55,486 bases of DNA from Rhodocyclaceae bacterium (GTDB lineage: Bacteria; Pseudomonadota; Gammaproteobacteria; Burkholderiales; Rhodocyclaceae): positions 1-55,486 of the forward strand of contig JAOAHQ010000047.1 in the NCBI GenBank assembly GCA_026415155.1, given 5' to 3'. Positions 6,063 to 52,412 of this stretch are shown in pieces. Both the position numbers and the translations under genes were made by a program. Positions within the stretch are counted from its first letter, which is position 1. The number at the start of each line of letters is the position of its first letter. Below the pieces are notes generated by a model, which saw only the letters and a list, made by a program, of their open reading frames with translations, ran no database searches and was not told where the DNA came from.

Positions 6063-7973
6063 ATGAGCGACTTTGCCGGCATGGAAGACCTGCTGCAGGA
6101 CTTTCTCGTCGAAGCGACCGATCTGTTGTCGGGCGTCGACAACAAGCTCGTCGATCTCGAAAAGAATCCGCACGATCACGGCCTGCTCAACGACATCTTT
6201 CGCGGCTTTCATACCATCAAGGGCGGTGCCGGTTTCTTGAACGCCACCGAGCTCGTCACGCTCTGTCACCTGACCGAAAACCTCTTCGACAAGCTGCGCA
6301 ACAACGAGCTCGAGGTGACCAAGGAGATCATGGACGTCATCCTCGCCGCCACGGCCGCGGTGCGCGAGATGTTCCATCATCTCGAGGGCGGTGTTCAGCC
6401 GCCGCCAGCCGATGCCCAGCTGATCGCCAATCTCAAGGCCGCGCTCGCCGGCCAGCTCACTTCTGCAGCCTCGACCCAGAGCGCGCCGGCGCCTGCTGCG
6501 CCAGCCGCGGCCCCTGCGACGACGCCAGCGCCTGCGGCCGGCCCGGACTGGGACAAGCTCTACGGCGCCGTCACCGGCGCCGTGCCCACGCCTGCCGTCC
6601 CGCCAGCGCCGACTTCTGCCGAGCCGGTCATGCATACCCAAGTGGCCGGCCAGACGCCGGAAGCCGTCATCCAGCACGCGATCGGCCGGCGCGCCACTGA
6701 CAAGCCCGGCGCCATGTCGGCCCCCGTCGGCCGCCGCGCCGACGAGAAAACGCGCGACAACTCGATCCGCGTCGACACCGCGCGGCTCGACCAGGTGCTC
6801 AACCTCTCGGGCGAGATCGGTCTCACCAAGAACCGGCTCTCCTCCTTGCGTTCCGACATCATCAACGGCCGCATCGACACCGAGACCCTGCATGCGCTCG
6901 ACCAGACGGTGAGCCAGCTCGACCTCTTGGTCTCCGATCTGCAAAACGCGGTCATGAAGACGCGCATGCAGCCGATCGGTCGGCTGTTCCAGAAATATCC
7001 GCGCATCGCGCGTGACCTTGCGCGCAATCTCGGCAAGGACGTCGAGCTCGTGCTCGCCGGTGAGGAGACCGAGATCGACAAGACGATGATCGAGGATCTC
7101 TCCGACCCGATCATCCACCTGATCCGCAATGCCGTCGACCACGGCGTCGAAAGCCCTGAGGAACGCCTCGCCGCCGGCAAGCCGCCGAAATCTCAGGTGC
7201 GGCTGGAGGCGCGCCAGGAAGGCGATCACATCGTGCTGATCGTCGCCGACGACGGCAAGGGCATGAATGCCGAGAAGCTGCGCGCCAAGGCGCTCGAAAA
7301 AGGCCTCATCACTGATGAAGAGGCCAACACGATGGACGAGCGCCAGAGCCTGAACCTCATCTTCCTGCCGGGCTTCTCGACCAAGGACGTCGCCTCCGAT
7401 GTCTCCGGCCGCGGCGTCGGCATGGATGTGGTGAAGACCAACATCCAGAAGCTCAATGGCAGCATCGAGATCAAGTCGCAGGTCGGCAAGGGCACGACCT
7501 TCATCATCTCGCTGCCGCTCACGCTCGCGATCCTGCCGGTGCTCCTCGTGCAGCTCGGCGAGCAGCCCTTCGCTGTGCCGCTTTCGATGGTGCGCGAGAT
7601 CCTGCCGATCCAGATCGAGCAGGTGCAGGAAGTCGGCGGCCGCGCGACGATGGTCGTGCGCGGCGAGGTGCTGCCGATCTACCCGATCGCCCATCTCTTG
7701 GGCTGGGTGCCGGAAAAGGTGCCGCAGTATGGCGTGCTGATGCAGACCGCGGAGCACACCTTCATCCTCGCCATCGACGGCTTCATGGGACGCGAGGATG
7801 CGGTCATCAAGTCGCTCGAAGACTTCCGTCCCAAGGGTGTCGCGGGGGTCACCACGCTCTCCAATGGCCAGATCGTGCTGATCCTCGACATGAAGGAGCT
7901 TCTCGCCGACATGGGCGAGAACCGTGGCGTGCCGCGCTCGGCCTTCATTCCCCCGGAGCGGGCGGCGGCCTGA
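6063..7973 (+). CDS. cheA: Chemotaxis histidine kinase CheA
   Basis: CheA autophosphorylates and feeds CheY. The HPt domain carries His50 in FRGFHTIKGGAGF. A long Ala/Pro linker (about 140-225) takes the place where a P2 CheY-binding domain is often found, and no P2 is recognised. The dimerisation domain starts near DNSIRVDTARLDQVLNLSGEIG. The ATPase has the N box HLIRNAVDHGVE and the G boxes DDGKGM and GRGVGMDVV. The CheW-like regulatory domain ends the protein. The linker contains the peptide AVPPAPTS, encoded by an exact copy of the dispersed repeat (6594-6615). Start at ATG 6063 is set by the GAGAGAAG site. The protein is 636 residues long. Confidence 0.95.
   Translation: MSDFAGMEDLLQDFLVEATDLLSGVDNKLVDLEKNPHDHGLLNDIFRGFHTIKGGAGFLNATELVTLCHLTENLFDKLRNNELEVTKEIMDVILAATAAVREMFHHLEGGVQPPPADAQLIANLKAALAGQLTSAASTQSAPAPAAPAAAPATTPAPAAGPDWDKLYGAVTGAVPTPAVPPAPTSAEPVMHTQVAGQTPEAVIQHAIGRRATDKPGAMSAPVGRRADEKTRDNSIRVDTARLDQVLNLSGEIGLTKNRLSSLRSDIINGRIDTETLHALDQTVSQLDLLVSDLQNAVMKTRMQPIGRLFQKYPRIARDLARNLGKDVELVLAGEETEIDKTMIEDLSDPIIHLIRNAVDHGVESPEERLAAGKPPKSQVRLEARQEGDHIVLIVADDGKGMNAEKLRAKALEKGLITDEEANTMDERQSLNLIFLPGFSTKDVASDVSGRGVGMDVVKTNIQKLNGSIEIKSQVGKGTTFIISLPLTLAILPVLLVQLGEQPFAVPLSMVREILPIQIEQVQEVGGRATMVVRGEVLPIYPIAHLLGWVPEKVPQYGVLMQTAEHTFILAIDGFMGREDAVIKSLEDFRPKGVAGVTTLSNGQIVLILDMKELLADMGENRGVPRSAFIPPERAAA
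6594..6617 (+). repeat. Dispersed 24-bp repeat, copy in the cheA linker
   Basis: An exact match to the core GCCGTCCCGCCAGCGCCGAC followed by TTCT, in the forward orientation. It is translated as AVPPAPTS in the disordered CheA linker. Confidence 0.75.
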
Positions 7974-7994
7974 CCGGCCATGAACGGCAGCGGC

Positions 7995-8015
7995 GCCGTC
8001 TTGCCAGCGCCGGCC
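7995..8015 (+). repeat. Dispersed repeat copy between cheA and the Uma2 gene
   Basis: Forward copy with substitutions (GCCGTCTTGCCAGCGCCGGC). It lies about a dozen bases upstream of a -10-like CATAAT. The GGCGC/GCGCC ends could pair in a hairpin. Confidence 0.6.
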
Positions 8016-8057
8016 GGGATGGGGGCATAATTATCCATGCCCACAGGAGAGGGGGTC

Positions 8058-8657
8058 ATGGCCCAGACACAGCGCCGGAACGATCGCCGCTATACCTATG
8101 CCGACTATTGCCGCTGGCCGGAAGGCGAGCGGTGGGAGCTCATCGACGGCGTGGCCTATGCCATGGGCCCTGCTCCTGCGCGAATCCACCAAAAAGTGCT
8201 GGGCGAGCTTTTCCGGCAAGTCGCCAATGCCTTGCAGGGGCGCAACTGCGAAGCCTATCTTGCCCCCTTCGACGTGCGGCTGCCGGCAGGTCAGGAAAGC
8301 GACGAAGAGCTCACGACCATCGTCCAGCCGGATCTTGCGGTGATCTGCGACCCCAGCAAGCTCGATGAAAAAGGCTGCCGAGGTGCACCCGATTGGATCG
8401 TCGAGGTGCTCTCGCCGGCGAGCGCGAGCCGTGATCACCTCGTCAAGCGTGAGCTTTACGAGCGCGCTGGCGTTGCCGAATACTGGCTCGTGCATCCGAT
8501 CGATCGCATGGTGACGATCTACCGGCAAAGCGACGCAGGACGATTTAGGGCGGCGGAAATTCTCGCCTGTGTGGGGCAAACGGCCGTCGGTTGCTTGCCA
8601 GAGCTCGTCATCGACTGGTCGGTGGTTTTTCCCGAGAGTGAAGGCGAGGCAGCATGA
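8058..8657 (+). CDS. Uma2-family (PD-(D/E)XK nuclease-like) protein
   Basis: Member of the Uma2/DUF820 family, whose fold is that of restriction-type nucleases and whose biological role is unsettled. Landmarks are YADYCRWPEGERWELIDG near the N-terminus, QPDLAVICDPSKL (acidic residue), WIVEVLSPAS (Glu) and the Lys/Tyr-rich KRELYERAGVAEYWLVHP. ATG 8058 is preferred over ATG 8037 because AGGAGAGGGGG precedes it. The protein is 199 residues long. It is an orphan between cheA and the pilus genes; a distant paralogue lies at 49582-50151. Confidence 0.85.
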   Translation: MAQTQRRNDRRYTYADYCRWPEGERWELIDGVAYAMGPAPARIHQKVLGELFRQVANALQGRNCEAYLAPFDVRLPAGQESDEELTTIVQPDLAVICDPSKLDEKGCRGAPDWIVEVLSPASASRDHLVKRELYERAGVAEYWLVHPIDRMVTIYRQSDAGRFRAAEILACVGQTAVGCLPELVIDWSVVFPESEGEAA

Positions 8658-8700
8658 ACGGGACGCGCGATTTCACCGCCGAGGCTGGGGGGAGATGAAA

Positions 8701-11700
8701 ATGCGCACGCTGGGAAAAAAGCGTCCATGGTCAGCAGTATTTTCCAAAGGGTTGCTCGTCCTCATCGCTTTGGGGTTCGGGGCCCTGGATTCATGGGCGG
8801 CGATTAACTGGTCGGCGACTTATGGCCGGCGTGGATTCTCAAGCGCAGCTCAGGTCAGGCCGACCTCCGCTGCCGGTGTGGCGACAGGCAACCTCTATGT
8901 GGCGCAAATCACCGTCGCGTCGGGCAATTGTGCTTCGTTGGGAACACCTGCGGGATGGACCCGGCATGCTTGCGACAGTCATGCCGGACATATTCAGGCC
9001 GTCTTCACCCGGCCGGCGCAACCCGCCGACCTCAATGTGACATTCAGTTTTCCTCTTGGGGCGACGCGCAGTTGGGCGACCCTCTTGAGTTCTTATTCCG
9101 GCGTCGATCTTGCCAATCCCATCGATGCCGAGCCGGTCGTGACGACTTATTCAAACAGCAAAAACGCCACCTCGGCGGCACTGGTGACCCAGACGAACGG
9201 AGCGAGGGGGGTGCTGATGACGAGCGCCAACACGTCTGAAAAAAACTTTTTTTCGCCGCCATCCAACTGGACGGAGCGAAGCGAGCGAGCCTGTGATAAC
9301 AAGGCCTGCCGCATCACGATGTCGGATTCCATTCATGCGACGGCCGGCACGCAGGCGGCGGTGACGACGACGACCAAAAAAAATGCTTCCGGCCTCGTTC
9401 ATCGCCTGGCTTTGCGCCCTTATTCGCTCGTCGCCTATTGGCCGCTCGATGGCATCCCATGGACGGCTGATCTATCGGGCAACAATCATCATCTCACTGC
9501 CAACGGCGGCGCCCAGCCGCAAAGCGCCAAAGTTTGCACGGGCTTTGCTGGCACGGGCAGCGAGTATTTGTCGGCCTCCGATGCCAATGCGCTCGATCTG
9601 CCCGACCGGTACACCCTCATGGCCTGGGTCTATCCCACTGCTCATCCGCCGAGTGATCTTTACACCATCTTGTCGAAAGACGAGAACTATGAGCTCCATT
9701 TGAACAGCCAAGGCAAGCTCTATTGGTGGTGGTCGAGGGTGAGCGCCTCCGCCGTATATGTCTTGAGCAATGCCATTATTCCACTCGACCAATGGACGCA
9801 TGTTGCGGTGGTTTTTGAGCGGACGGCGGCGAGCCAGCGCCAGCGGATGTATATCAATGGCGTGCTCGATGCCACGGCCAACTATAGCGAAGCAGCTCTC
9901 ACCAACAGCGATCCAGTGCTGATTGGGGCCGATATCAACTATACGACGCGCCATTTCCGCGGCAAGATCGACGAAGTGCGCATCTACAACGGTGCGCTAT
10001 CGGCAGCCGAGATTGTGGCGGCGATGGAGCTGACTCATCCTTGTCACGTCGATCACTACCGCCTGAAAATCAACGATGGCCAGGCGCTTACCTGCGAGAG
10101 CGAACCAGTCAGCATCGAGGCGTGTGCCGATGCCAACTGTGCGACTTCCTATAGCGGCAATGCTTCCGTGACGCTCAATGCCACCAATGGCGCAAAGATC
10201 GACGATCAGAACCCGCCAGTAACGGTGTCGATCATCAACGGCGGCGGAAGCGCCTTGATCAGCAAGACGGCAGCGGGCAGCACGGTGCTCTCGATGTCGG
10301 CGGGCAATCCGGCGCCGACGGCTAGTCCTGGCTACCGCTGTTACGTGGCCGACAGCGAAGTCGCCTGGTCGGCTTGCCAGATCGGCTTCCAGGATGCCGT
10401 GCTGCGGATCGATGTGCCCGATTTCACAGCTTGTACCGGCACGGCAAATGCCACGATTACCGCCGAGGGTTGCGGTGCAACGATCAGCGGCAACCAGAAC
10501 CTCAAGGTATGGATGAACTACGTCGATCCTTCCAGCGCCAATGGAGAGTCGCTGCGGCTCGGCACGCTCGTTGTCCCGACGAGCAAACCGAGCAGCAATA
10601 ACCTCACGAACTTGAATTTCACCGACGGTGAGGCAACGTTGCCACTCGTCAATTACGACGATGCCGGCGAGCTAAGGCTGAATGCCGAGCTTGTCGCCAC
10701 CGGCGGTACGACGCTGACAGGCAGCGGGACTTTCGTCGTGGCGCCAGAGAAGCTCCAGCTTTCCTCGGCGGCCGGTGCCTGCGCCGCCCCTTATCCTTCA
10801 TGCAACAAATTCAAGAAGGCGGGCGAGTCTTTCGATTTGTCGCTCAAGGCGCTTTGCTCGAGCGGCAAGGTGACGAAAAACTTCCGCGGCGACAATATTG
10901 CATTGAAGCACAGCCGGCTCGCCCCCGATCCAGGAGCCGATGGCAGCTTCGCTCCTCCAACTGTATCGCTGGTGGCGACCGACAATGGCAGCAAGACGTT
11001 TCAGGCCGCCATTAGTGAGGTCGGTGTCTTTTCAGTCGCGCCAGACCTCTTCCAATACAAAGGCGTCGATGTGCCAGGTGAAGGGACGGGGCCTTTGGGA
11101 CGGTTTTATCCCGCCTATTTCGACACCGTAGTAGAGCCGGCTTGCGGCAGCTTTACCTACTCCGGCCAACCTTTCGGCTTGAGCGTGACGGCCAAGAATA
11201 GCAGCGGGGTCACAACACAAAATTATGCCGGCAGCTTTGCCAAGACGGTGACGCTCATCGATGGCAATGGAGCCTCTGGATCGTTTTCACCGCCTACCTT
11301 GTCCGCGACGAGTTTCTCAGATGGCGTTGCCGACTTGATGGATCCCCCGAGCGTCAGCTTCGCCTTTGCCAGCAAACTGACTGGGCCGGCGATACTCAAG
11401 CTGCGGACTAGGGATACCGACATGGCCTCCGACACGGTGGGTATGAATGAAGGCGAGATGCCGCTCCGCTCCGGCCGCCTATTGCTTTCGAACGCTCATG
11501 GTTCGGAATTGCTCGACCTCACGATGCCGATTCAGACCCAGTATTGGACCGGTAGCGCCTGGGCGACCAACAGTCTCGATTCCTGCACGGATGTTTCCTC
11601 TTCATTGGTGTTTGTGAAGACGCCACCGAGCCTGCCTTCGCCGACGGGCGGGACGATCACCAATGGGCAAGGGCAATTGAGCTTTCCAGCGCCCAACCAG

Positions 11701-11922
11701 AAAGGCAGCATCGAGGTTTGCGCCAATATCGGTGATGACAGTGACAACCCGCTGACGGGCTGTCGGGATGGCACCAGCCTACCTTGGTTGCAAGGTAGTT
11801 GGGATGTAGATAACTACTCCAAAGACGATCCCCGCCACTACAAAGACAACCCCTCGGCGCGCGCGACCTTTGGCATCTTCAAGGGACGGGCGCCGGTGAT
11901 CTACCGGCGCGAGCGCTACTAA
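8701..11922 (+). CDS. mshQ: MSHA biogenesis protein MshQ-like surface adhesin
   Basis: Large exported protein of 1073 residues. A basic N-terminus and hydrophobic stretch (about 17-35, ending near SWAA) form a signal peptide. A LamG/concanavalin-like fold spans roughly 245-445 (SLVAYWPLDG, NHHLTANGG, TLMAWVYPT, LDQWTHVAVVF, FRGKIDEVRIYNGALSAAEI). The rest resembles the DUF6701 region of MshQ, with paired cysteines and Ig-like repeats (YSGQPFGLSVTAKN, GSFSPPTLSATSF). It probably sits at the tip or base of an MSHA-type pilus. ATG 8701 fits the GGAG site six bases upstream better than ATG 8695. It is the first gene of the pilus block, unlike the usual order in which mshQ is last. Base composition looks lower in GC than its neighbours. 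Confidence 0.75.
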   Translation: MRTLGKKRPWSAVFSKGLLVLIALGFGALDSWAAINWSATYGRRGFSSAAQVRPTSAAGVATGNLYVAQITVASGNCASLGTPAGWTRHACDSHAGHIQAVFTRPAQPADLNVTFSFPLGATRSWATLLSSYSGVDLANPIDAEPVVTTYSNSKNATSAALVTQTNGARGVLMTSANTSEKNFFSPPSNWTERSERACDNKACRITMSDSIHATAGTQAAVTTTTKKNASGLVHRLALRPYSLVAYWPLDGIPWTADLSGNNHHLTANGGAQPQSAKVCTGFAGTGSEYLSASDANALDLPDRYTLMAWVYPTAHPPSDLYTILSKDENYELHLNSQGKLYWWWSRVSASAVYVLSNAIIPLDQWTHVAVVFERTAASQRQRMYINGVLDATANYSEAALTNSDPVLIGADINYTTRHFRGKIDEVRIYNGALSAAEIVAAMELTHPCHVDHYRLKINDGQALTCESEPVSIEACADANCATSYSGNASVTLNATNGAKIDDQNPPVTVSIINGGGSALISKTAAGSTVLSMSAGNPAPTASPGYRCYVADSEVAWSACQIGFQDAVLRIDVPDFTACTGTANATITAEGCGATISGNQNLKVWMNYVDPSSANGESLRLGTLVVPTSKPSSNNLTNLNFTDGEATLPLVNYDDAGELRLNAELVATGGTTLTGSGTFVVAPEKLQLSSAAGACAAPYPSCNKFKKAGESFDLSLKALCSSGKVTKNFRGDNIALKHSRLAPDPGADGSFAPPTVSLVATDNGSKTFQAAISEVGVFSVAPDLFQYKGVDVPGEGTGPLGRFYPAYFDTVVEPACGSFTYSGQPFGLSVTAKNSSGVTTQNYAGSFAKTVTLIDGNGASGSFSPPTLSATSFSDGVADLMDPPSVSFAFASKLTGPAILKLRTRDTDMASDTVGMNEGEMPLRSGRLLLSNAHGSELLDLTMPIQTQYWTGSAWATNSLDSCTDVSSSLVFVKTPPSLPSPTGGTITNGQGQLSFPAPNQKGSIEVCANIGDDSDNPLTGCRDGTSLPWLQGSWDVDNYSKDDPRHYKDNPSARATFGIFKGRAPVIYRRERY

Positions 11923-12461
11923 TGAAAGCGTCGTCGTCGGCACCCAACGAATCAGGCTGCGCGTGCCGTAGAGGTACCCCCCCTCGCAAGCTTGTCGAGG
12001 CTGGCAGGGTGGAACGACGGACTTCGGGATTCACCCTCGTCGAGCTAGTCGTCACGCTGATCATTCTCGGTATCCTTGCCGTCGTTGCAATCCCGCGCTT
12101 TTTCGATCGACGCGATTTCGATGCGCGCGCCTTCCTCGATGAGGTAGCCGCCGCGCTCCGCTATGCGCAAAAGGCGGCAATCGCCCAACGGCGCACGGTA
12201 TGTGTGGCCTTTGATGCCAATTCGGTGACGTTGAGGATTCGCTCGGCGCCAGGTAACGGTGCTTGCGACACGGATCTAACCGGCCCTGCGGGCAGCACGC
12301 CCTATACGGTCACAGCGCCAGGCAGCGTCACGTTCAGCCCGACCCCGGCCGGCTTCAGCTTCGATGCTGAGGGCCGACCGAGCACGGGTAGCACGATCGC
12401 CATCGGCGGCATCACGACGACGATCACCGTGGAGCCGGAGACGGGGTATGTCGTTTATTGA
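11922..12461 (+). CDS. GspH/FimT-type pseudopilin (MshC-like)
   Basis: Type IV pilin-like protein with the prepilin peptidase site SG/FTLVELVVTLIILGILAVVAIPRFF, shown here as GFTLVELVVTLI then a hydrophobic helix. A GspH-like globular domain with Cys pairs follows. From ATG 11922 (overlapping the mshQ stop) the leader would be 36 residues, unusually long. GTG 12009, preceded by GAGG, would give a conventional leader (MERRTSG) and may be the true start. It lies in the mshQ-C-D-O-P block and is probably a minor pilin of the MSHA-type pilus. Confidence 0.8.
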   Translation: MKASSSAPNESGCACRRGTPPRKLVEAGRVERRTSGFTLVELVVTLIILGILAVVAIPRFFDRRDFDARAFLDEVAAALRYAQKAAIAQRRTVCVAFDANSVTLRIRSAPGNGACDTDLTGPAGSTPYTVTAPGSVTFSPTPAGFSFDAEGRPSTGSTIAIGGITTTITVEPETGYVVY

Positions 12462-12906
12462 GCGCCAGCGGGGTCTCACGCTGACCGAGCTGATCCTGTT
12501 CATCGTCATCGTCGGCGCGGCGGTGGCGGGCGTCTTGTCCGTGTTTGTGGAGGCCACACGCCGTTCGGCTGATCCTCTGATCCGCAAGCAAGCGATGGCG
12601 GTGGCGGAATCGCTGCTGGAGGAAATCCTCGCCGTGCCCTACACCTGCCCGCCCGGAGCCACCTGCAATGCGGTGACCATCACCAACCGCACTGCAACCC
12701 ATGCGCTCGCCGACTACAACGGTTTCACGATGACGGGCATCTGCGCCTTGGACGGCACGGTGATTCCACAGTTATCCGGCTACACGGCCAAGGTTGAGGT
12801 GGCAGATGAAGGCACGTGGAACGGCGCGAATGGGCGGCTGATTACCGTGACGGTGTCGGCGGCTAGCGAATCGGTGAGCTTGACTGGCTGGCGTGGAGCC
12901 TACTGA
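12448..12906 (+). CDS. mshD: MSHA minor pilin MshD-like
   Basis: Prepilin-like protein of 152 residues. The leader MSFIERQRG is followed by the class III signal LTLTELILFIVIVGAAVAGVL and a small globular domain containing SLLEEILAVPYTCPP, typical of MshD. The ATG overlaps the previous gene by 14 bp and the stop overlaps mshO (TGATG), so translation is coupled. It is probably a minor subunit initiating pilus assembly. The major pilin MshA is not in this window. Confidence 0.82.
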   Translation: MSFIERQRGLTLTELILFIVIVGAAVAGVLSVFVEATRRSADPLIRKQAMAVAESLLEEILAVPYTCPPGATCNAVTITNRTATHALADYNGFTMTGICALDGTVIPQLSGYTAKVEVADEGTWNGANGRLITVTVSAASESVSLTGWRGAY

Positions 12907-13772
12907 TGCCTCAGTTGCGCGGTTTTACCCTCGTGGAGATGATCGTGGCCATCACGATCACGGGCATTGTGGCCGTGATGGTCGCCGTTTTTCTCAAGTC
13001 GCCGGTCGAAGGATATGTCGCCTCGGCGCGGCGCGCCTGGCTGACCGATGTCGCCGACACGGCGCTGCGCCGCATCGCGCGCGATGTGCAGGCGGCCTTG
13101 CCCAACAGTCTGCGGCCCAATAGCGCTTGTGAGGCCTCGGGAACGACAGTCTGCGGCCTGGAGCTGCTGCTCACCACGACCGGCGGGCGTTACAGCCAGG
13201 ATGCGGCCGAAGACTGCTTTTCCAGCGGCTGCACGAGTCTTTCCACGCTGGGTAGCGTGATCGCCGCCGATGACGAGCTTAAAGGCCAGCATCTAGTCAT
13301 TTACAACCTGCACAACAACGATGGCGGCAGCTGCTCGGCAAGCTATCCCTCCGCCTATTGCGGCGCTGGCAGCAACAACCGCGCTCAGATCAGCGGCTCG
13401 ACCGACGGCGGCAACAGCGATAGCTTCTCCTTCGACAGTACGGTTTTCCGTCCCGCTACTGGCTCACCCTCGCGCAGCTTTTTCATCGTCTCCGGCCCAG
13501 TGGCCTATGCCTGCTCTGGCGTGGGCGTCAGCGGGGGAAATGGCACGGGCGAGTTGCGCCGCTATCAAGGATATGCGATCGCTGCGACGCCGTCCTGGCC
13601 TCCCACGGGCGCTTCGGGGCGACTGCTGGCACACCGGGTCTCGGCCTGTCGCTTGAACTATGCGCCCGCTGCCGCTGGCACCAATGGATTGCTCGAGCTT
13701 TATCTCGAGATCATGGAGGGGGGCGAACGCGTCGGGCTCTACCACGAGGTGCATGTCGACAATGCGCCCTGA
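12906..13772 (+). CDS. mshO: MSHA minor pilin MshO-like
   Basis: Protein of 288 residues beginning MPQLRGFTLVEMIVAITITG, a short leader and class III pilin helix. Several cysteines follow (NSACEASGTTVCGLE, EDCFSSGCTS, VAYACSG), compatible with disulphide-stabilised loops. Size and position between mshD and mshP match MshO, a PilW/GspJ-like minor pilin. Both ends overlap the neighbouring genes, which indicates a tightly coupled operon. Confidence 0.82.
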   Translation: MPQLRGFTLVEMIVAITITGIVAVMVAVFLKSPVEGYVASARRAWLTDVADTALRRIARDVQAALPNSLRPNSACEASGTTVCGLELLLTTTGGRYSQDAAEDCFSSGCTSLSTLGSVIAADDELKGQHLVIYNLHNNDGGSCSASYPSAYCGAGSNNRAQISGSTDGGNSDSFSFDSTVFRPATGSPSRSFFIVSGPVAYACSGVGVSGGNGTGELRRYQGYAIAATPSWPPTGASGRLLAHRVSACRLNYAPAAAGTNGLLELYLEIMEGGERVGLYHEVHVDNAP

Positions 13773-14160
13773 TCAACCCGCCACCCGCGGTTTCGCCATC
13801 GTCTCGGCGCTGTTCCTAGTCGTGGCGCTTGCCGCACTCGGGGCGGCGATCATGCACTTTTCTTCGGTTCAGCACCTCACGGGGGCGCAGGACATCCAGG
13901 GCTCGCGCGCTTTGGCTGCCGCGCGCGCCGGTACCGAGTGGGCGGCAGCTTATGTGACTGCTCACAGCGCTTGCCCGGCTAGCCCAAGCACTCTTACCTT
14001 CGGCGATTTCTCCGTGAGCGTTGCGTGTTCCTCCAGCAGCCATAGCGATGAAGGTTCCTCATTGACGGTTTATGCCATTACCTCGACGGCGAGCACGGGG
14101 GGCAGCGTTGGCAGCTTAGGCTATGTCGAGCGGCAGGTGAGCGCAACGCTCGTCAAGTAA
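13753..14160 (+). CDS. mshP: MSHA biogenesis protein MshP-like
   Basis: Protein of 135 residues with a PilX/GspK-like N-terminus: RGFAIVSALFLVVALAALGAA followed by IMHFSSVQHLTGAQDIQGSRALAAARAGTEWA in two parts typical of MshP. The start at 13753 is supported by GAGG four bases upstream and overlaps mshO by 20 bp; ATG 13762 is an alternative. It is the last gene of the pilus block. A copy of the dispersed repeat begins at its stop codon. Confidence 0.8.
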   Translation: MSTMRPDQPATRGFAIVSALFLVVALAALGAAIMHFSSVQHLTGAQDIQGSRALAAARAGTEWAAAYVTAHSACPASPSTLTFGDFSVSVACSSSSHSDEGSSLTVYAITSTASTGGSVGSLGYVERQVSATLVK

Positions 14161-14180
14161 CTCGGCGCTGGCGGGACGGC
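14160..14180 (-). repeat. Dispersed repeat copy after mshP
   Basis: Reverse-orientation copy (CTCGGCGCTGGCGGGACGGC) beginning on the last base of the mshP stop codon. Its GGCGC and the GCGCC just beyond it could form a hairpin. Confidence 0.7.
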
Positions 14181-18428: not shown

Positions 18429-20027
18429 ATGACGGTGAAACGCTTTTTCGGTGAGAGCGCGCGCGAGGCGCTGCGCAAGGTCAAGGCGGAACTCGGCCCC
18501 GAGGCGATCGTGATCTCGAACAAGCCCGTCGCAGGCGGCGTCGAGATCATGGCGATGTCGGCCGACAGCCTCGATGCCCTCTCCAAGCAAGCCAGCGCTG
18601 CGCCACCTGCCGGGGCCGTCCCGCCACGGCCGACTATTCGAAGTGAGTCGGCGCCCGGCGGGACGTCTTCATTTCCGCCAGCGCAGACTATTCGAAGTGA
18701 GTCGGCGCCCGGCGGGACGTCTTCATTTCCGCCAGCGCCTCCAGGGGCGGGCGCGCCAGCGGCGCCGGCGAGCCCTCCGCCGGCTGCGCCGACGTATCAC
18801 ACGCATGAGGACGAGGATTATGCAGTGAGCCTCTCGGCCAAGGCGCGCGCGCCGCGGCCCTTCCAGCCGTGGCAGCCCTGGCATCCGCCGCGCGCCGAGC
18901 CGGTGAGTCCTGCACGAGCGGCGTCGGCGCCGCAAGAGCGCGTGCGGCCGCGGCCGCTGCCGCCCAAGCAGCAGGTGCCGAGCCACGAGCAGGTGGCCGC
19001 TACACTCGCCCAGGCGGCGCGGGAACTCGACTCGGCAAGCGCGGGCGGCTTCGAGGACACGCCGCAAATCCGTGAGCTTCTGAGCGAGATGCAATCGATC
19101 AAGGCCATGCTCGAACGTCAGCTCGCCGGTTTCGCCTGGGGTGAGATGACGCGCCAGGCGCCAATCAAGGCGCAACTGCTCGGCGAAATGCTCGAGGCGG
19201 GCTTCTCCGGGCTGCTGTCGCGCCGGCTCGTCGAAGAGATGCCGGAAAACCTGGAGCTCGCGGCGGCGAGAAAGTGGCTGATCGGCGCGGTCAATCGCCG
19301 CCTGCGGACGCTGTCGGCCGAGAACGATCTCATCGACCGCGGCGGCGTGTTCGCGCTCGTCGGCCCGACGGGTGTGGGCAAGACGACGACGACGGCGAAG
19401 CTTGCCGCGCGCTGCGTCGTGCGCTATGGCGCCGAAAAGCTCGCCCTCTTGACCACCGACGGCTACCGCATCGGGGCGCATGAGCAGCTGCGCATCTATG
19501 GCCGCATCCTCGGCGTGCCGGTGCATGTGGTGCGCGATGGTGAGGATCTGCGCCGCACGCTCGCCGATCTGTCCGGCAAGCACATGGTGCTCATCGACAC
19601 CGTCGGCATGAGCCAGCGCGACCGCATGGTCGCCGAGCAGGCAGCGATGCTGATGCGCGCCGGCGACGTGCGGCGCCTCTTGCTGCTCAATGCGACGAGC
19701 CGCGGCGACACGCTCGACGACGTGATCCGCAACTACGCGGGCGAAGACATCGCCGGCTGCATCCTGACCAAGGTCGATGAGACGGCATCGCTTGCGCCGG
19801 CGCTCGACGCCGTAGTGCGCCACGGCTTGTTGCTTGCCTATGTCGCCAACGGCCAGCGCGTGCCCGAGGATCTGCATCTGCCCAATCGCAACTGGCTCTT
19901 GCACCGCGCCTTCAAACAGCCGGCGCCCAATTCGGTGCATCGCCTCAAGAGCGAGGAAATCGGTCTCTTGATGCCGGCGCGCCTCGATGAGCCGCCGGCG
20001 GCTTCGCGCGGAGGCGCCTTTGTCTGA
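18429..20027 (+). CDS. flhF: Signal-recognition-type GTPase FlhF
   Basis: FlhF places the flagellum at the pole. The N-terminus MTVKRFFGESAREALRKVKAELGPEA is the B-domain start. A Pro/Ala-rich linker of about 110 residues follows. The NG domain has the P-loop GPTGVGKTTTTAK near residue 312, DTVGMSQRD (G3) and TKVDE (G4). At 532 residues it is longer than many homologues. The linker contains an exact 54-bp tandem duplication built from the dispersed repeat. The stop overlaps the next gene by 8 bp, coupling FlhF to the FlhG-like relic. Confidence 0.95.
   Translation: MTVKRFFGESAREALRKVKAELGPEAIVISNKPVAGGVEIMAMSADSLDALSKQASAAPPAGAVPPRPTIRSESAPGGTSSFPPAQTIRSESAPGGTSSFPPAPPGAGAPAAPASPPPAAPTYHTHEDEDYAVSLSAKARAPRPFQPWQPWHPPRAEPVSPARAASAPQERVRPRPLPPKQQVPSHEQVAATLAQAARELDSASAGGFEDTPQIRELLSEMQSIKAMLERQLAGFAWGEMTRQAPIKAQLLGEMLEAGFSGLLSRRLVEEMPENLELAAARKWLIGAVNRRLRTLSAENDLIDRGGVFALVGPTGVGKTTTTAKLAARCVVRYGAEKLALLTTDGYRIGAHEQLRIYGRILGVPVHVVRDGEDLRRTLADLSGKHMVLIDTVGMSQRDRMVAEQAAMLMRAGDVRRLLLLNATSRGDTLDDVIRNYAGEDIAGCILTKVDETASLAPALDAVVRHGLLLAYVANGQRVPEDLHLPNRNWLLHRAFKQPAPNSVHRLKSEEIGLLMPARLDEPPAASRGGAFV
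18614..18738 (+). repeat. Inverted repeat pair and 54-bp tandem duplication inside flhF
   Basis: A forward repeat copy (18614-18635) faces a reverse copy (18646-18667) across a 10-bp spacer. The segment 18632-18685 is then repeated exactly at 18686-18738, giving a second reverse copy at 18700-18721. The duplicated unit encodes TIRSESAPGGTSSFPPA twice. The layout resembles a paired (REPIN-like) element. Confidence 0.8.
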
Positions 20028-27344: not shown

Positions 27345-27348
27345 TGAA

Positions 27349-27370
27349 ACTCGGCGCTGACGGGACGGCA
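27349..27370 (-). repeat. Dispersed repeat copy between flgE and flgF
   Basis: Reverse-orientation ACTCGGCGCTGACGGGACGG with one substitution in the core, starting a few bases after the flgE stop. Confidence 0.65.
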
Positions 27371-30759: not shown

Positions 30760-30763
30760 TCAC

Positions 30764-30776
30764 GGCAGCTTTTGCC
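30764..30776. promoter_or_regulatory. Weak GGCAA-N3-TTGCC-like palindrome between flgI and flgJ
   Basis: GGCAGCTTTTGCC matches nine of the ten arm bases of the operator-like motif. It lies four bases after the flgI stop. No convincing sigma-54 promoter accompanies it. Confidence 0.3.
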
Positions 30777-30827
30777 GCCTTGTTCCGCCTCACCGGCAAG
30801 CGCGCCTCAAGGCATGCTTCGAGCGAT

Positions 30828-31744: not shown

Positions 31745-31767
31745 GCCGTCCCGCGAGCGCCGACTTT
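31745..31767 (+). repeat. Dispersed repeat copy upstream of flgK
   Basis: Forward GCCGTCCCGCGAGCGCCGAC plus TTT, with one change from the core. It ends two bases before the -24 box of the flgK sigma-54 promoter. Confidence 0.7.
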
Positions 31768-34104: not shown

Positions 34105-35472
34105 ATGATCCGCATCAGCACCTCGATGATCTATGACGCCGGCGTCGGCGCGATCAACCGCCAGACGGCCACGCTCTTGCATCTGCAGCAGCAGGTGGCG
34201 ACCGGCCGGCGCATCGTCACGCCGGCCGACGATCCGGTCAATGCCGCGCGGGCGCTCACCGTGCAGCAATCCGAATCGGTCGTCGCGCAGTTTTCCACGA
34301 CGATCGACAATGCCCGCTCTGCCTTGGGCCTCGAAGAGGCGCAACTGACGAGCGTCAATGAGCTCTTCGCGCGCATCAAGGAGCTGACCGTGCAAGCGGG
34401 CAATGCCTCCTTGACCGCCGGCGACCGGGCCTCGATCGCCATCGAATTGAGAGGCCGCTTCGACGAGCTCTTGGGGCTCGCCAACGCCGCCGATGGCCAG
34501 GGGCTCTATCTCTTTGCCGGCTACAAGGGCGATACCAAGCCCTTCGGCGGCACCGTCGATGTCCTCAATGCCGCGCCCGGCAACGAGATCGCCTACTATG
34601 GCGACGATGGTCAGCGCCTCTTGCAGGTGGCCGCGACGCGTTTCCTGCCGGTCTCCGATTCAGGCCGCGAGACCTTCGTGGCGATCCGCAATGGCAATGG
34701 CAGCTTCGTCACCGATTATGCAAAGAACGCCAGCGGCCAGTCGCTCAACACCGGCACCGGCATCATCGACGGCGGCCGCGTCTATGATCCGGTCGCCTGG
34801 GCGAGTGTGGCCGACAAGAATCTCGAGATCCGCTTCTACGTCGACACCACGGTGACGCCGCCGATCCGCTATTACGATCTCGTTGCCACCAACGGCACGC
34901 CGGCGCCCGGTGACGATGTCTCTTTGCTTACTGGCGTGGCCCCAGTGGTGCCGACCTTCCCCGGCGTGCCGCCGGGGCTGCGCGTCTATCAGGACAACCA
35001 GCCGATCGATTTTTCGGGGCTGGCCGTTTCGCCGGCCGATTATGGCATCGGTGTGACGATCTCTGGGCAGCCCGCCACGAATGATGTGTTCACGATCCGG
35101 CCGAGCACGACGCAAAGCGTCTTCAAGACGCTTGCCAAGCTCATCGCAACCTTGGAGAGCACGACGGCCACCGATGCCGACCGCGCGCGCTACGCCAACG
35201 ACATCGGCTTTGCGCTGCGCGACTTCGACCAGGCGCAGGAAAACGTGCTGCGCGTGCGCGCGGCGATCGGCAGCCGGCTCGCCGAGCTCGATTCGCTCGC
35301 CGCGACGAATGCCGACCTCAAGCTGCAATACCAGCAGACGCTCTCGGCGCTCGTCGATCTCGACTACGCGAAGGCGATCTCGGATCTGACGAGAAAGCAA
35401 GTCGATCTGCAAGCCGCGCAGCAATCCTTCGCGCAGATTTCGCGCCTTACCCTCTTCGATTACCTGCGGTGA
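34105..35472 (+). CDS. flgL: Hook-filament junction protein FlgL
   Basis: Hook-associated protein 3, 455 residues, with a flagellin-like N-terminus (MIRISTSMIYDAGVGAINRQ) and C-terminus (KQVDLQAAQQSFAQISRLTL). The insert between them contains a unit similar to those of FlgK (YGIGVTISGQPATNDVFTIR). It begins 15 bp after flgK, and its stop overlaps the start of the next gene. Confidence 0.94.
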   Translation: MIRISTSMIYDAGVGAINRQTATLLHLQQQVATGRRIVTPADDPVNAARALTVQQSESVVAQFSTTIDNARSALGLEEAQLTSVNELFARIKELTVQAGNASLTAGDRASIAIELRGRFDELLGLANAADGQGLYLFAGYKGDTKPFGGTVDVLNAAPGNEIAYYGDDGQRLLQVAATRFLPVSDSGRETFVAIRNGNGSFVTDYAKNASGQSLNTGTGIIDGGRVYDPVAWASVADKNLEIRFYVDTTVTPPIRYYDLVATNGTPAPGDDVSLLTGVAPVVPTFPGVPPGLRVYQDNQPIDFSGLAVSPADYGIGVTISGQPATNDVFTIRPSTTQSVFKTLAKLIATLESTTATDADRARYANDIGFALRDFDQAQENVLRVRAAIGSRLAELDSLAATNADLKLQYQQTLSALVDLDYAKAISDLTRKQVDLQAAQQSFAQISRLTLFDYLR

Positions 35473-36005
35473 TGCCGTCTGCCCAGCGCCGACTTTTGAG
35501 CCTTCTGCTCGCCGCCGCCTTCGCCGCAGGCTGTTCGAATGTGCCGACCCAATCGAATGCCACGGGCGCGGGCGGCAAGGCAAGCCAAGCCATCGCCAAG
35601 ACGGCCGCTTCGGTGATCGGCGGGCCGCTGATTCCGGATGTTTCACTCGCGCTCTCACCTTCCGTCGTCTATCCGCTCGAAGACCTCGTCTTCTGGGGCG
35701 GGCTCGCAGCGGCGGCCTGGCTCATCCTCGACCCTCTGGCACCCAACTGGGAAATCCGCGCGGCGCGTTTTCCGGGCGATCACTACCACCTGCAGCTTGC
35801 GATGAAGCGTTACTACGCCGGCGGGGCGGGCGAAGCGCGATTGCTCTTCCATCGCCGCGCCAAGGAGCTGATGCACGCAGGCGGCTACTCGTCCTATGAG
35901 GTTGTCGAATACAGCGAGGGGCTCGACTCTTCAGTGATCGGCTCGCAGCGCACCGCCTATGGCGTGATCCGCCTCAAGAGGCCGGCGGCTTCGCCTGGCG
36001 CATGA
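35472..36005 (+). CDS. Putative lipoprotein, function unknown
   Basis: Protein of 177 residues that I do not recognise as a named family. The N-terminus is a lipoprotein signal peptide: MPSAQRRLLSLLLAAAFAAG followed by Cys. The body contains VYPLEDLVFWGGLAAAAWLI (possible membrane-associated helix) and HYHLQLAMKRYYAGGAGEAR. The first codons (PSAQRRLLS) lie inside a copy of the dispersed repeat, read in a different frame from the other coding copies. ATG 35472 overlaps the flgL stop, so it is cotranscribed with flgKL. Its 3' end overlaps the convergent fliR by 32 bp. Confidence 0.7.
   Translation: MPSAQRRLLSLLLAAAFAAGCSNVPTQSNATGAGGKASQAIAKTAASVIGGPLIPDVSLALSPSVVYPLEDLVFWGGLAAAAWLILDPLAPNWEIRAARFPGDHYHLQLAMKRYYAGGAGEARLLFHRRAKELMHAGGYSSYEVVEYSEGLDSSVIGSQRTAYGVIRLKRPAASPGA
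35474..35497 (+). repeat. Dispersed repeat copy in the lipoprotein signal peptide
   Basis: Forward GCCGTCTGCCCAGCGCCGAC plus TTTT, with two substitutions relative to the core. It begins on the third base of the ATG. Confidence 0.7.
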
Positions 36006-37824: not shown

Positions 37825-38194
37825 GGGCGGTCGCGTTTTCGGGCAAAGCGGGCACTTCCTGGCGCGGGATTTCCGCCAGCGTCGTGACCTGCCCCGGCGC
37901 GACCCCCAAGACGAGCCAGCTGTTGCCGAGTTCGAGGATCACGACGCGCTCGCGTGCGCCGACGGCGACGGCGGCGACGATGCGCATCAGGCCGGCCACC
38001 GGGCCGCGCGGCTGGCCAAGCCGCTTGATGAGCCAGAGCGTGCCCAAGAGGAGGGCGAGCACGACGAGGAGGCCGAAGACCATCTGCACGGCGCTTGTAC
38101 CGAGCTCGGGGGCCGTGCCGCCAGCGCCGACTTCCGCGGCCAGCGCGGGCAAGGGGATGAGGCTGACGGGCATAACGAGGCTTCGCGGCGACAT
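37772..38194 (-). CDS. fliO: Flagellar protein FliO
   Basis: Assembly factor for FliP, 140 residues. A signal peptide ends near ALAAEVG, one membrane helix is at [20 protein letters not shown], and a basic cytoplasmic tail follows. The periplasmic linker contains [10 protein letters not shown], encoded by the dispersed repeat read in antisense. Confidence 0.88.
38112..38134 (+). repeat. Dispersed repeat copy inside fliO
   Basis: Forward on the + strand, GCCGTGCCGCCAGCGCCGAC plus TTC, one change from the core. FliO, on the minus strand, reads it as EVGAGGTA. Confidence 0.72.
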
Positions 38195-43367: not shown

Positions 43368-44070
43368 CGCGAGCGGTTTTCGTCAAAGTCGGCGCGGGCG
43401 GCACGGCCGCCTCGGGCTGCCAGGCCGAAGCAAGCCCCAAGTGTTCGAGCACGCGCTGCCAGCGCATCGCCACCGTGGCGTCGATCTGCGTGCCGCCGGC
43501 TTCGAGCACACAGTCGCCGCGCTCGAGCTTCATGTCTTCGTGGATGCGATGGCCGGCATGAGAAAGCGCCTCGCCGAGATACGAGCGCAACAGCGAAGCA
43601 TCTTCGGGATGGAGATAAATCGCAACGTGCTGGTGAGGCAGCTGCGCGAGCGCCTCGCGCACCACGGCAAGAAGCGTCTGCGGCCGCGCCGTGATCTCCT
43701 GGCGGACGACCTGGCGCGCAAGTTCCACGGCCAGCGCGAGCACGTCGTCGGCAAGCGAAATTTCGAGCCCGGCCAGCGCTTGCTCGAGCTTGCCGGCAAG
43801 TGAAGCGAAGCGCTCGGCTTCGGCTTGTGCCTGCTGCCGGCCGGCATCAAAGCCGGCCTCGAAGCCGGCGCGATACCCTTCCTCCTGGCCCTTGCGGTAG
43901 CCTTCGTCGTGCGCCTGCTGGTGGATCTGTTCGAGCTCCTCCGCCGTCGGCAGATGCACGGCGGGGGTAGCGGGCGCTTCGGCAGGAGGCGGTTCGGGCG
44001 GAGGCGGCGGGGCATCGAAGCTTGCAAGCTCCCAGCGTTCCCAGGCGGTGAGTTTGGCGGGATCGGGCAT
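43357..44070 (-). CDS. fliH: Flagellar ATPase regulator FliH
   Basis: Stator-like partner of FliI, 237 residues. The N-terminus ([20 protein letters not shown]) is Pro-rich. The middle has Gly-spaced repeats ([20 protein letters not shown]) of the FliH type. The C-terminal tail [17 protein letters not shown] is encoded by a dispersed repeat copy, which may have extended the protein past its normal end. Confidence 0.93.
43386..43407 (-). repeat. Dispersed repeat copy at the 3' end of fliH
   Basis: On the minus strand it reads GCCGTGCCGCCCGCGCCGAC plus TT, two changes from the core, giving AVPPAPTL in FliH. Confidence 0.68.
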
Positions 44071-46827: not shown

Positions 46828-46851
46828 GCCGTATCGCCTGCGCCGAGTTTT
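46828..46851 (+). repeat. Diverged dispersed repeat copy upstream of flrB
   Basis: Forward GCCGTATCGCCTGCGCCGAG plus TTTT, four changes from the consensus, in the leader of flrB. Confidence 0.5.
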
Positions 46852-47755: not shown

Positions 47756-47760
47756 CAGCG

Positions 47761-49212
47761 ATGGCCAAGACCACCATGAACATTCTGGTCGTCGAGGACG
47801 ACGACGCTTTGCGCGATGCGCTCATCATCACGCTCGAAGCAGCCGGCATGCGCGCCCAGGGCGCCGCAAGCGGCCCGCAAGCGCTCGAGCTCGTCGAGCG
47901 CGAGACCTTCCAGATGGTCGTCTCTGACCTGCGCATGAGCCCGATGGACGGCCTTGAGTTGCTTGCCGAGCTCCGCGCGCGGCGCCCCGGCCTGCCGGTG
48001 CTCCTCATGACGGCTTTCGGCGACGTCGACAAGGCCGTGGCCGCGATGAAGGGCGGCGCCTGCGACTTCATGCTGAAGCCTTTCGAGCCGCAGGTGCTCA
48101 TCGACCAGATCGAGCGCTACGCGACCCCGCCAGCGGCCGAAGGGGTGATCGCTGCCGATCCCAAGACGCGCGAGGTGCTCCTGCTCGCCGCGCGCGTGGC
48201 CAAGACCGATGCGACCGTCTTGCTCACCGGTGAGTCGGGCACCGGCAAGGAGGTCTTCGCGCGCTATCTTCATGACCAGTCGCCGCGCGCCAAGGGGCCG
48301 TTCGTGGCGATCAACTGCGCGGCGATTCCCGACAACCTGCTCGAGGCGACCCTCTTCGGTCACGAGAAAGGGGCTTTTACCGGTGCGCAAAGCGCCCAGC
48401 CGGGCAAGTTCGAGCAGGCCGATCATGGCACCTTGCTGCTCGACGAAATCTCCGAGATGCCGCTTTTACTCCAGGCCAAGCTTCTGCGCGTGCTGCAAGA
48501 GCGCGAAGTCGAGCGCGTCGGCGGCAAGAAGCCGATTCCCGTCGATATCCGTGTCTTGGCCACCTCGAACCGCGATATGGCGGCGGAAGTGGCCGCCGGC
48601 CGCTTCCGCGAAGACCTCTACTACCGTTTGAACGTCTTTCCGCTCGCCATCCCGCCCCTGCGCGAACGGCCGGGCGACATCGTGCCGCTCGCGAAGCATT
48701 TCCTCGCCCTGCATGGCGCGCGGCTCAATCGCACGGCGCGCCTTGCCGAGGCGGCGACGGCAAAACTTGCCGCCTACCCTTGGCCGGGCAATGTGCGCGA
48801 GCTCGAAAACGTCATCCAGCGCGCGCTGATCCTCGCCCCCGGCGAGACGATCGAGGCCGAGCATCTGCTCTTGCCCGAAATGAAAAGCAGCGCTATGCCC
48901 CCCGCGGCTACGGCGAAGGCGGCAGGTGGGCCAGAAGAGGCCGTCTTGCCAGCGCCGACTTTTGCTGCTGCGCCGGCGCCGGGGGGAGGCGCCTCCCTTT
49001 CGCCGCCTTCACCGCCGCCGCCCTCTGCCGCAACGCCGGCCATGCCGGCCAACATGAAGGAGCTCGAGCGCCAGCACATCCTCGAAACCCTCGCCAAGGT
49101 CGGGGGCTCGCGCAAGAAGGCCGTCGAACTCTTGGGCATCTCCGAGCGCACGCTGCGCTACAAGCTCAAGCAGTATCGCGAGGAGGGGTATTTTCATGAT
49201 GACCGGGAGTAG
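47761..49212 (+). CDS. flrC: Sigma-54-dependent flagellar response regulator FlrC/FleR
   Basis: NtrC-family activator of 483 residues. The receiver has Asp near residue 56 (VSDLRMSPMDG). The AAA+ domain has Walker A GESGTGKE and the sigma-54 contact motif GAFTGA near residue 204. The C-terminal Fis-type helix-turn-helix is KKAVELLGISERTLRYKLKQ. The linker before the HTH is Ala/Pro-rich and contains AVLPAPTF from a dispersed repeat copy. It should drive the sigma-54 promoters found at flgB, flgK, fliK, fliE and fliD. Confidence 0.95.
   Translation: MAKTTMNILVVEDDDALRDALIITLEAAGMRAQGAASGPQALELVERETFQMVVSDLRMSPMDGLELLAELRARRPGLPVLLMTAFGDVDKAVAAMKGGACDFMLKPFEPQVLIDQIERYATPPAAEGVIAADPKTREVLLLAARVAKTDATVLLTGESGTGKEVFARYLHDQSPRAKGPFVAINCAAIPDNLLEATLFGHEKGAFTGAQSAQPGKFEQADHGTLLLDEISEMPLLLQAKLLRVLQEREVERVGGKKPIPVDIRVLATSNRDMAAEVAAGRFREDLYYRLNVFPLAIPPLRERPGDIVPLAKHFLALHGARLNRTARLAEAATAKLAAYPWPGNVRELENVIQRALILAPGETIEAEHLLLPEMKSSAMPPAATAKAAGGPEEAVLPAPTFAAAPAPGGGASLSPPSPPPPSAATPAMPANMKELERQHILETLAKVGGSRKKAVELLGISERTLRYKLKQYREEGYFHDDRE
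48940..48963 (+). repeat. Dispersed repeat copy in the flrC linker
   Basis: Forward GCCGTCTTGCCAGCGCCGAC plus TTTT, two changes from the core, translated as AVLPAPTF. Confidence 0.75.
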
Positions 49213-49217
49213 CATTC

Positions 49218-49233: not shown

Positions 49234-49244
49234 ATAAAGCGGGC

Positions 49245-49571: not shown

Positions 49572-49581
49572 CCTGGCGGCC

Positions 49582-50151: not shown

Positions 50152-50152
50152 A

Positions 50153-50911: not shown

Positions 50912-51240
50912 GGCCGCGCGCTGCCGGGCGGGGGAGGCGCGAGGGGCGAGAGCGGGCTGATTCCTTTTTGCTCGACCTGGTAGAGCCAGGCGAGCAGCTC
51001 GGCGACGGCGACATAGAGCGCCGGCGGAATGTGCGCGTCGAGATCGACCTGCGAGAGGAGTGTCACGAGCTCGGGCGATTCGTGCACATAGACGCCGTGC
51101 TCCTTGGCGCGCGCGATGATCTCCTCGGCGATCAAACCGCGCCCCTTGGCGATGACCCTGGGGGCGAGATCGCCCGGCGCGTATTTCAAGGCGACGGCGA
51201 GCGTGCTCTTATCAGCCGGTTGCCCCGGCAAGGCGCTCAT
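50908..51240 (-). CDS. Orphan FlhB C-terminal domain protein
   Basis: Protein of 110 residues matching only the cytoplasmic C-terminal part of FlhB: LAVALKYAPGDLAPRVIAKG, followed by RGLIAEEIIARAKEHGVYVHE and LDAHIPPALYVAVAELLAWL (in parts). The NPTH cleavage motif of full FlhB is absent; the sequence begins just after it (the equivalent Ser-Thr-Leu-Ala). Such proteins (FhlB/FlhX type) can replace the cleaved FlhB tail in export. It is coupled by ATGA overlaps to both neighbours. Confidence 0.8.
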   Translation of the reverse strand: MSALPGQPADKSTLAVALKYAPGDLAPRVIAKGRGLIAEEIIARAKEHGVYVHESPELVTLLSQVDLDAHIPPALYVAVAELLAWLYQVEQKGISPLSPLAPPPPGSARP

Positions 51241-52412
51241 GCCGCCTCCCCGGCCGGGGGGAGCTCCTCGTGGCGCACTTGAAAGCCGGTCAGCGGCACG
51301 CCTGCCGCTTCGAGCGCCGCGGCGAGCTTGGGCGCCTCGTCGCGCAAGTCGGCTGCGCTCGCGCCATAGGGCGTGGCAAGCAAAATGCTGACGCCCTCCT
51401 TCGAGAGGCGCAGCCTCGCATCGATGCGGCCTAAGCGCGGCGTGGTGAGCGAAAGCGAAGTGCTCCATTGGAGCGCTTCCTCGCCGCCTTCGCCGCCTTC
51501 GCGCTCGCCTTCCCATTCGATTTCCCATTCGAGCATCTGGCGCGGCCAGATCTCGCCATGCCAGACGAGGCGCTGGGTGGCGATCGCTTCGAGCTGCTGC
51601 TGCACGAGCGGGCGCAGCTCCTCGGCGACGGCCTGCGCCGCCGCGCCGGCCTGCCCCGCGCGTGCGGCGGGCTCGCTGCCCGCGGGGGCCGTCCCGCCAG
51701 CGCCGACTTTTTCGGGGCCGCCGGGAAAGGCCGGCGATGCGCTCAAGGCGCCGGTTGCGGCTCCCTCAGCGCTGCGGGCGCGCGCCGCCTCGGCGGCGAG
51801 AAAGGCGGCGGGGGAAGAGTGCTGCCCTTGCGGTTCTTGCAGCAGCCGCTCGAGGGGAAGCTTGCCGGCCACCCATTGCGCTTGATGCGCCTCGTAAAAG
51901 AGCCCGCTTTGCTCGACGGCGCGCGCCAGGCGCGGGACGAGTTCCGCTGCCGCCGTTGGAGAGGCGGGCGGCTGCGGCAGGAGCGGCTCGCCGCGGTTGA
52001 GCAGGGCCGGCGCGGCGCGCTCGCCCTCGGCCGGCAAGAGTTGGCTGATGAGCCGCGCCGCGGGGCTGAATTGCATGAAAGGATAAGGCCCGGCGCTGCC
52101 GGTCGCTGGCGGCCCGCCTGATTCCACCTGGCGGGCGATGATCGCCTTGGCCGAGCGGTCGATGACGACGAGCTGAAGATCATCGCCGGCCTTGGCCCCC
52201 TCGGGCAGTTGCAAGGTGAGCTGCCGGCCGGCGACGAGCGCCTTGTAGGTGTTGTCGGGCAGCGCTTCCTGGATGCGCGCGCTGAAGGTCTGGCCCGGCA
52301 GGAGTTCCGGCAGGTCGGCGGGAATCTCGTGCGCCGGCCGCACCGGCTGCAGGGGATTCGCTTCGGTCTGCAGGCGCAGGCGCAGGCCGGCATCGGGCGG
52401 GATCAGCGCCAT
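51237..52412 (-). CDS. Second FliK-like hook-length control domain protein
   Basis: Protein of 391 residues. The C-terminal Flg_hook-like domain reads LSLTTPRLGRIDARLRLSKE and LAAALEAAGVPLTGFQVRHE, resembling FliK. The N-terminal part has a beta-rich segment (FSARIQEALPDNTYKALVAG) and a long low-complexity middle. That middle contains KVGAGGTAP from an antisense dispersed repeat copy. ATG 52412 has GAGG five bases upstream. It may regulate export together with the orphan FlhB domain encoded next to it. Confidence 0.78.
   Translation of the reverse strand: MALIPPDAGLRLRLQTEANPLQPVRPAHEIPADLPELLPGQTFSARIQEALPDNTYKALVAGRQLTLQLPEGAKAGDDLQLVVIDRSAKAIIARQVESGGPPATGSAGPYPFMQFSPAARLISQLLPAEGERAAPALLNRGEPLLPQPPASPTAAAELVPRLARAVEQSGLFYEAHQAQWVAGKLPLERLLQEPQGQHSSPAAFLAAEAARARSAEGAATGALSASPAFPGGPEKVGAGGTAPAGSEPAARAGQAGAAAQAVAEELRPLVQQQLEAIATQRLVWHGEIWPRQMLEWEIEWEGEREGGEGGEEALQWSTSLSLTTPRLGRIDARLRLSKEGVSILLATPYGASAADLRDEAPKLAAALEAAGVPLTGFQVRHEELPPAGEAA
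51688..51712 (+). repeat. Dispersed repeat copy inside the second fliK-like gene
   Basis: Forward on the + strand with an exact core, GCCGTCCCGCCAGCGCCGAC, followed by five T. The minus-strand gene reads KVGAGGTA. Confidence 0.78.

Follow-up and report, generated by a model that had tools for sequence, protein, structure and literature searches.

What is the short repeat that recurs, both between and inside genes, along contig JAOAHQ010000047.1 of a Rhodocyclaceae bacterium (assembly GCA_026415155.1)? The window analysed here is the whole stretch of 55,486 nucleotides, positions 1 to 55,486 of the forward strand. An earlier note, made from its letters alone, had described a dispersed repeat and offered three guesses as to its nature: a REP-type (repetitive extragenic palindromic) sequence, a palindromic protein-inserting element, or a DNA-uptake-like word. 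The repeat proves to be a non-palindromic 23-bp word with sharp bounds, GCCGTCCCGCCAGCGCCGACTTT, and the last of the three guesses fits best with its abundance, its dialects, its even spacing and its lack of orientation bias. By analogy with the DNA uptake sequences (DUS) of Neisseriaceae and the uptake signal sequences (USS) of Pasteurellaceae, we consider it probable that this is a word for the uptake of self-DNA, written in dialects.

The analogy is with published properties. The part of PMC1939737 available describes uptake sequences as non-palindromic, often located in open reading frames (ORFs) and yet in excess in noncoding DNA, evenly spaced, and without chromosomal orientation bias, and the corresponding part of PMC3630211 describes dialects by lineage. 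The word is likewise in genome-wide excess on both strands, is kept by relatives with dialects, and is evenly spaced without orientation bias; it is because of this match that we take it as an uptake word. Under such a system, the word would be favoured by a DNA receptor belonging to the machinery of natural transformation, and biased uptake followed by recombination could then have spread it over the genome. The receptor might be a type IV minor pilin, in which case dialect shifts would be expected to follow receptor shifts.

The abundance of the word is well beyond chance. In the genome to which the window belongs (2.38 Mb in 70 contigs, 83.5% complete), the 20-bp core of the word, GCCGTCCCGCCAGCGCCGAC, is matched at up to three mismatches 529 times, in balance between the strands (263+/266-), versus 3 times for the reversed pattern. 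This amounts to about one word per 4,000 letters, and in well-sampled genomes the density is 0.15-0.30 per kb. Among 113 copies of the full word found in 455 kb (19% of the same genome), 75 (66%) lie inside genes as placed by a home-made gene caller, 36 in sense and 39 in antisense and in all frames; a further 33 are intergenic and 5 run across gene ends. As 88% of the DNA was called coding, the word is in excess in noncoding DNA. Protein constraint alone is ruled out as an explanation, since the coding copies occur on both strands and in all frames. The same counts bear on the idea that the word is a transcription terminator or RNA processing signal. Its 3' end is T-rich, and the earlier note's observation of copies starting right after stop codons holds at 14158 and 31745, which would suit such a signal; nevertheless, a single word folds no better than shuffled sequences (z -0.05), close pairs are rare, and most copies lie inside predicted genes, more than half of these antisense. 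An intrinsic terminator is thereby ruled out, and a signal of this kind in general is very improbable.

The arrangement of the copies is also informative. In G017, a relative of the same genus assembled as one contig, words show no bias with respect to the replication strand as judged by GC skew (48 vs 54), which rules out a polar chromosome motif of the Chi or KOPS (FtsK-orienting polar sequence) type. The coefficient of variation of word spacing is 0.60 in G000, compared to 0.94+-0.08 in simulations that kept the numbers of coding and noncoding words, and 0.62 in G017, compared to 0.87+-0.08; none of 1000 simulations reached the observed value in either genome. Words are also more evenly spaced than chance in G005 and G044. 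This evenness raises the main rival explanation, in which a chromosome-organising or nucleoid-associated protein binds the word, whose spacing and constraint would be architectural and whose dialects would track changes in that protein. Even spacing and uneven base constraint do suit a protein-binding site; against this stand the lack of replication strand bias, the antisense orientation of half of the coding copies, and the fact that one species of the genus, like most of the family's sampled genera, lacks the word. Furthermore, we know of no chromosome-organising protein with an asymmetric 23-bp site about every 4 kb. Karlin et al. once read the spacing of uptake sequences in this way, according to the part of PMC1939737 available, and we regard the explanation as unlikely for the present word while keeping it foremost among the alternatives.

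Base by base, the word has three constrained blocks, GCCGT, GCGCCGA and TTT, the first two parted by a loose spacer and the last two by a single loose base, and in the flanks of 30 exact copies there is little conservation outside the sharp 23-bp unit that ends in TTT. Among the 113 copies, bases 1-5 (GCCGT) and 13-19 (GCGCCGA) are near-fixed and bases 21-23 are mostly T, with the differences between copies distributed unevenly and concentrated at the looser bases 6-8, 12 and 20. The mismatch spectrum is bimodal: these copies lie at 0-5 mismatches, and at 6 mismatches the word has 10 matches vs 11 for its reversed control, which is background, so the spectrum does not trail off into decaying copies. 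Orthologous words in species with the standard dialect follow the same pattern. In 124 ungapped pairs, bases 1-5 and 13-19 have identities of 0.92-1.00 and bases 21-23 of 0.91-0.96, vs 0.775 in the flanks, while bases 6-9 and 20 drift at 0.55-0.80; pairs were admitted when both words agreed with the consensus at >=17 bases, a condition that raises all identity values and leaves the contrast between positions unaffected.

Within the window, the core at up to three mismatches has 11 matches vs 0.05 expected, and 0 of 100 shuffles reached 11. The features are as follows:

6594..6616, plus strand: word inside the CheA gene, in the linker between the Hpt and dimerisation domains
7995..8014, plus strand: marginal copy, core at three mismatches, without the T tail
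14158..14180, minus strand: word immediately past the stop of ORF 13660-14160
18615..18738, plus strand: composite array in the FlhF linker, made of a word and inverted arms (18646-18665 and 18700-18719); its tandem unit measures 54 bp and is read in frame
27347..27369, minus strand: word at the junction of flgE and flgF, a position shared by most aligned relatives
31745..31767, plus strand: word just past the stop of ORF 29679-31739, ahead of flgK
35474..35496, plus strand: word at the end of flgL, within the opening codons of ORF 35469-36005
38112..38134, plus strand: word past fliN, in the fliO/fliP region (putative host gene)
43385..43407, minus strand: word within fliH, sense strand
46828..46850, plus strand: divergent word with four mismatches, between fliF and an flrB-like gene
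48940..48962, plus strand: word in the linker of an FlrC-type regulator, at the same place in many relatives
51688..51710, plus strand: exact copy of the 23-bp word, in or close to ORF 51373-51885 (without Pfam match)

The dispersed repeat is therefore real: the core recovers 11 of the 15 places that the earlier note had listed, including 7995, which we call marginal because it has no T tail and drops out when the full 23-bp word is sought at up to five mismatches. As for the other listed places, 46828 can be kept at four mismatches, 15030 on the minus strand is doubtful at five, and 18646 and 18700, both given as minus-strand copies, are in fact the inverted arms of the composite array. A match at 22409, in MotB, passes the 23-bp cut at five mismatches, but the way it aligns with relatives suggests conservation at the protein level. 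Pfam supports CheA, FliH and the FlrC-type regulator as hosts of coding copies, as the earlier note had it, and FlhF likewise; Pfam returned no match for the ORF around the copy called FliK-like (51373-51885) or for the lipoprotein ORF (35469-36005).

The dialects were read from a consensus for each genome, drawn from stretches of 29 genomes, many of which gave fewer than 10 words (G006, G018 and G023 gave none). In the best sampled members of the genus, G000 and G017, base 1 is G, base 5 is T and base 20 is mostly C. In G005, base 1 is A in 25 of 26 words; in G016, base 5 is C in all 32 words and base 20 is G in 26 of them. G042, from a different genus, is mixed at base 15, with A in 13 of 21, and the spelling in G044 is GCCGTnCcGCgGgGACTGACTTT (28 words in 140 kb). 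Words at orthologous sites have been respelled in place: in gap-free alignments, this is seen at 7 of 7 sites in G016, one of which is uninformative because the orthologues shown carry the same base, and at 2 of 2 sites in G005. At the flgE-flgF junction, the change of dialect is visible base by base. Overall, 605 same-genus ortholog pairs from flagellar stretches comprise 330 ungapped pairs sharing the word, 201 gapped pairs and 74 ungapped pairs without it; at least 14 of the last group stem from the doubtful MotB match, and many gapped pairs fall in intergenic DNA whose length varies or are shifts of a base or two.

These alignments can be set against the possibility that the word is a mobile repeat (a REP, a miniature inverted-repeat transposable element or similar) that copied itself and was then kept by local selection. 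The gapped third of the ortholog pairs would fit such a repeat, as would the multiplication of the FlhF array described below, which is translated within its host. Proteins of PF01797, the family of REP-associated tyrosine transposases (RAYT), were also found in 7 of 17 word-rich genomes, scored per genome irrespective of their distance to words. The other 10 returned no PF01797 match, and two of these are 100% complete (1 and 3 contigs). A mobile repeat is unlikely to keep fixed positions, to be respelled in place and to space itself evenly, and we prefer an uptake word for this reason; the quality of the copies, which have no decay tail, also speaks against self-copying, which we regard as a poor candidate. 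REP/RAYT in particular is unsupported and was ruled out, as the single word folds no better than shuffles, few words have a neighbour within 300 nt, and no PF01797 match was found in those 10 genomes. The REP-type reading of the earlier note thus fails.

The earlier note's palindromic protein-inserting element fits the array at 18615-18738 and not the single word. In the array, a word, inverted arms and partial words make up the 54-bp tandem unit; one unit folds to -32.7 kcal/mol (z -3.68) and is read in frame within FlhF. Inverted arms number 63 in G017, 53 in G002, 18 in G004 and 9 in G000, and 0-2 in the other 15 genomes of the genus. A PF01797 search of the four array-rich genomes gave no match. 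The array, separate from the single word, resembles a protein-inserting palindromic repeat and has multiplied in four species.

Across genomes, the word is confined in its distribution. Copy numbers range over 373-763 in 18 of the 19 genomes of the genus; the exception, G006, holds 2. Of the 68 genera sampled across the family, six exceed 200 copies in all of their sampled genomes (6, 5, 1, 1, 4 and 4 genomes); altogether, 21 of 199 family genomes are word-rich, and the other 178 hold 0 to 42 copies. Using a looser pattern, altered spellings were found in three more genera: g27 (four genomes, with 64, 52, 32 and 1 copies), g61 (one genome, with 80) and g82 (four genomes, with 17, 27, 13 and 0). 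In all, 33 genomes are rich in words of the standard or a near spelling, and 7 carry an altered one. Of the 399 genomes scanned in the order, 386 are from outside the family, and each of these has at most 6 matches. The exact 23-mer, among the matches listed (80 loci), carries mostly Rhodocyclaceae labels, the others being Sulfuritalea, Sulfurisoma, Propionivibrio, Azonexus, Thiobacillus and a few more. Over 6.2 kb, the sequence of G008, a member of the genus, is the same as that of 'Rhodocyclaceae bacterium E6_metabat.bin.36'.

The word appears to have been lost in G006, compared to hundreds of copies in 18 sister species, and in G186 of g27, which has 1 copy vs more than 50 in two genomes of its genus. 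In 36 kb of G006, no other 11-mer is frequent apart from a GC-rich pair. The word-poor genomes G115, G160, G089, G035, G245 and G292 carry a handful of near-exact copies lying within tens of kb of one another, which may be DNA imported from word-bearing relatives or binning error. An exact 22-mer of the word occurs in 52 viral-contig stretches (L153-L204), mostly one copy each, which may represent flanking host DNA, prophage or contamination, and a plasmid search with one window gene as query gave no match.

A receptor for the word was sought through prepilin motifs (13 genomes), pilins from part of those loci and a FimT-like pilin model (40 genomes). ComEC is present in 32 of 32 genomes and prepilin motifs in 13 of 13, wordless ones included. 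The FimT-like model fails to separate the groups because all 40 genomes match it, some weakly (G078 at 8e-5, perhaps through other pilins) and wordless G006 clearly (4e-31). The uptake machinery seems to be present, but it does not explain which genomes carry words. In the window itself, beside the flagellar cluster, a pilin-like operon at 8569-14160 includes an ORF of 1117 aa as well as N-terminal prepilin motifs (at 12015 and 12918); we take it to be reminiscent of the mannose-sensitive haemagglutinin (MSHA) pilus genes. The word at 14158 follows its last ORF, and similar prepilin motifs lie just before flhB in G002 and G017.

Several points weigh against an uptake word. No receptor was found by the searches above, in which neither ComEC nor the FimT-like pilin distinguishes word-bearing from wordless genomes, and G006 has lost the word yet keeps ComEC and pilins. 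The density is below the 1471 copies per genome of H. influenzae and the 1965 of N. gonorrhoeae (figures from the part of PMC1939737 available), and the word is longer. The evenness of spacing is non-significant in G016 and G071 and borderline in G042, the in-place change of dialect is based on nine sites, and some words may have been gained or lost by insertion or deletion, given the 201 gapped pairs.

As for precedent, our literature search found no paper pairing DUS with Rhodocyclaceae and none with the 15-mer, and broader queries returned no mention of it among the matches listed. The holders of uptake words named in the sources, as far as their available parts go (e.g., PMC7811141, 2020), are only Pasteurellaceae and Neisseriaceae. 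A bolder proposal, which we make tentatively and consider rather unlikely, is that environmental Rhodocyclaceae have a third independent uptake-word system in which species dialects act as barriers to exchange and which the hairpin array parasitises. Preferential uptake of word-bearing DNA would perhaps explain how the array, bearing tandem words, spread in these four species, in which no RAYT was detected. If uptake is what the word serves, it would be a third example of such a system, this one in environmental bacteria, after the self-DNA tags of a few disease-causing bacteria. The old question of what spreads uptake words, biased uptake alone or selection for self-recognition, could then be put to a comparative test in a third lineage, whose dialects vary among species within a genus (G005 and G016) and are mixed in a member of another (G042). 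Such a lineage would also provide a test bed for receptor-word co-change and for dialects as species barriers.

Near the start of the window, the adjacent 325-aa ORFs at 2822-3799 and 3812-4789 share 74% identity over 217 bp and form a tandem duplication, perhaps, at a guess, of a CheV-type gene.

Compared to known systems, the array in FlhF is like the palindromic elements of Rickettsia, which are palindromic repeats translated within proteins; the likeness is limited to the array, as the common word is non-palindromic with fixed bases. REP sequences with RAYT are also short and dispersed, unlike the single word in being palindromic; no RAYT match was found in 10 of the 17 word-rich genomes. 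The REPIN is a hairpin doublet, which the array resembles. The USS consists of a core and then a T-rich sequence, as does this word. Like the word, the USS is asymmetric, mostly in ORFs, evenly spaced and without orientation bias (as given in part in PMC1939737); unlike it, the USS is unrelated in sequence and denser, and uptake function is ascribed here by analogy. The DUS differs in its length (10-12 bp vs 23), its host family and the rarity here of close inverted pairs, and its essential CTG would coincide with the loosest bases of this word. GCCGTC is common to the word and to the Neisseria word GCCGTCTGAA (PMC1852404, in the part available), which is a lead only; by rough estimate, a match this short could well arise by chance. 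In its hundreds of copies or more, its asymmetry, its lineage dialects and its wordless relatives, the word is like the DUS of Neisseriaceae as described in the available part of PMC3630211.

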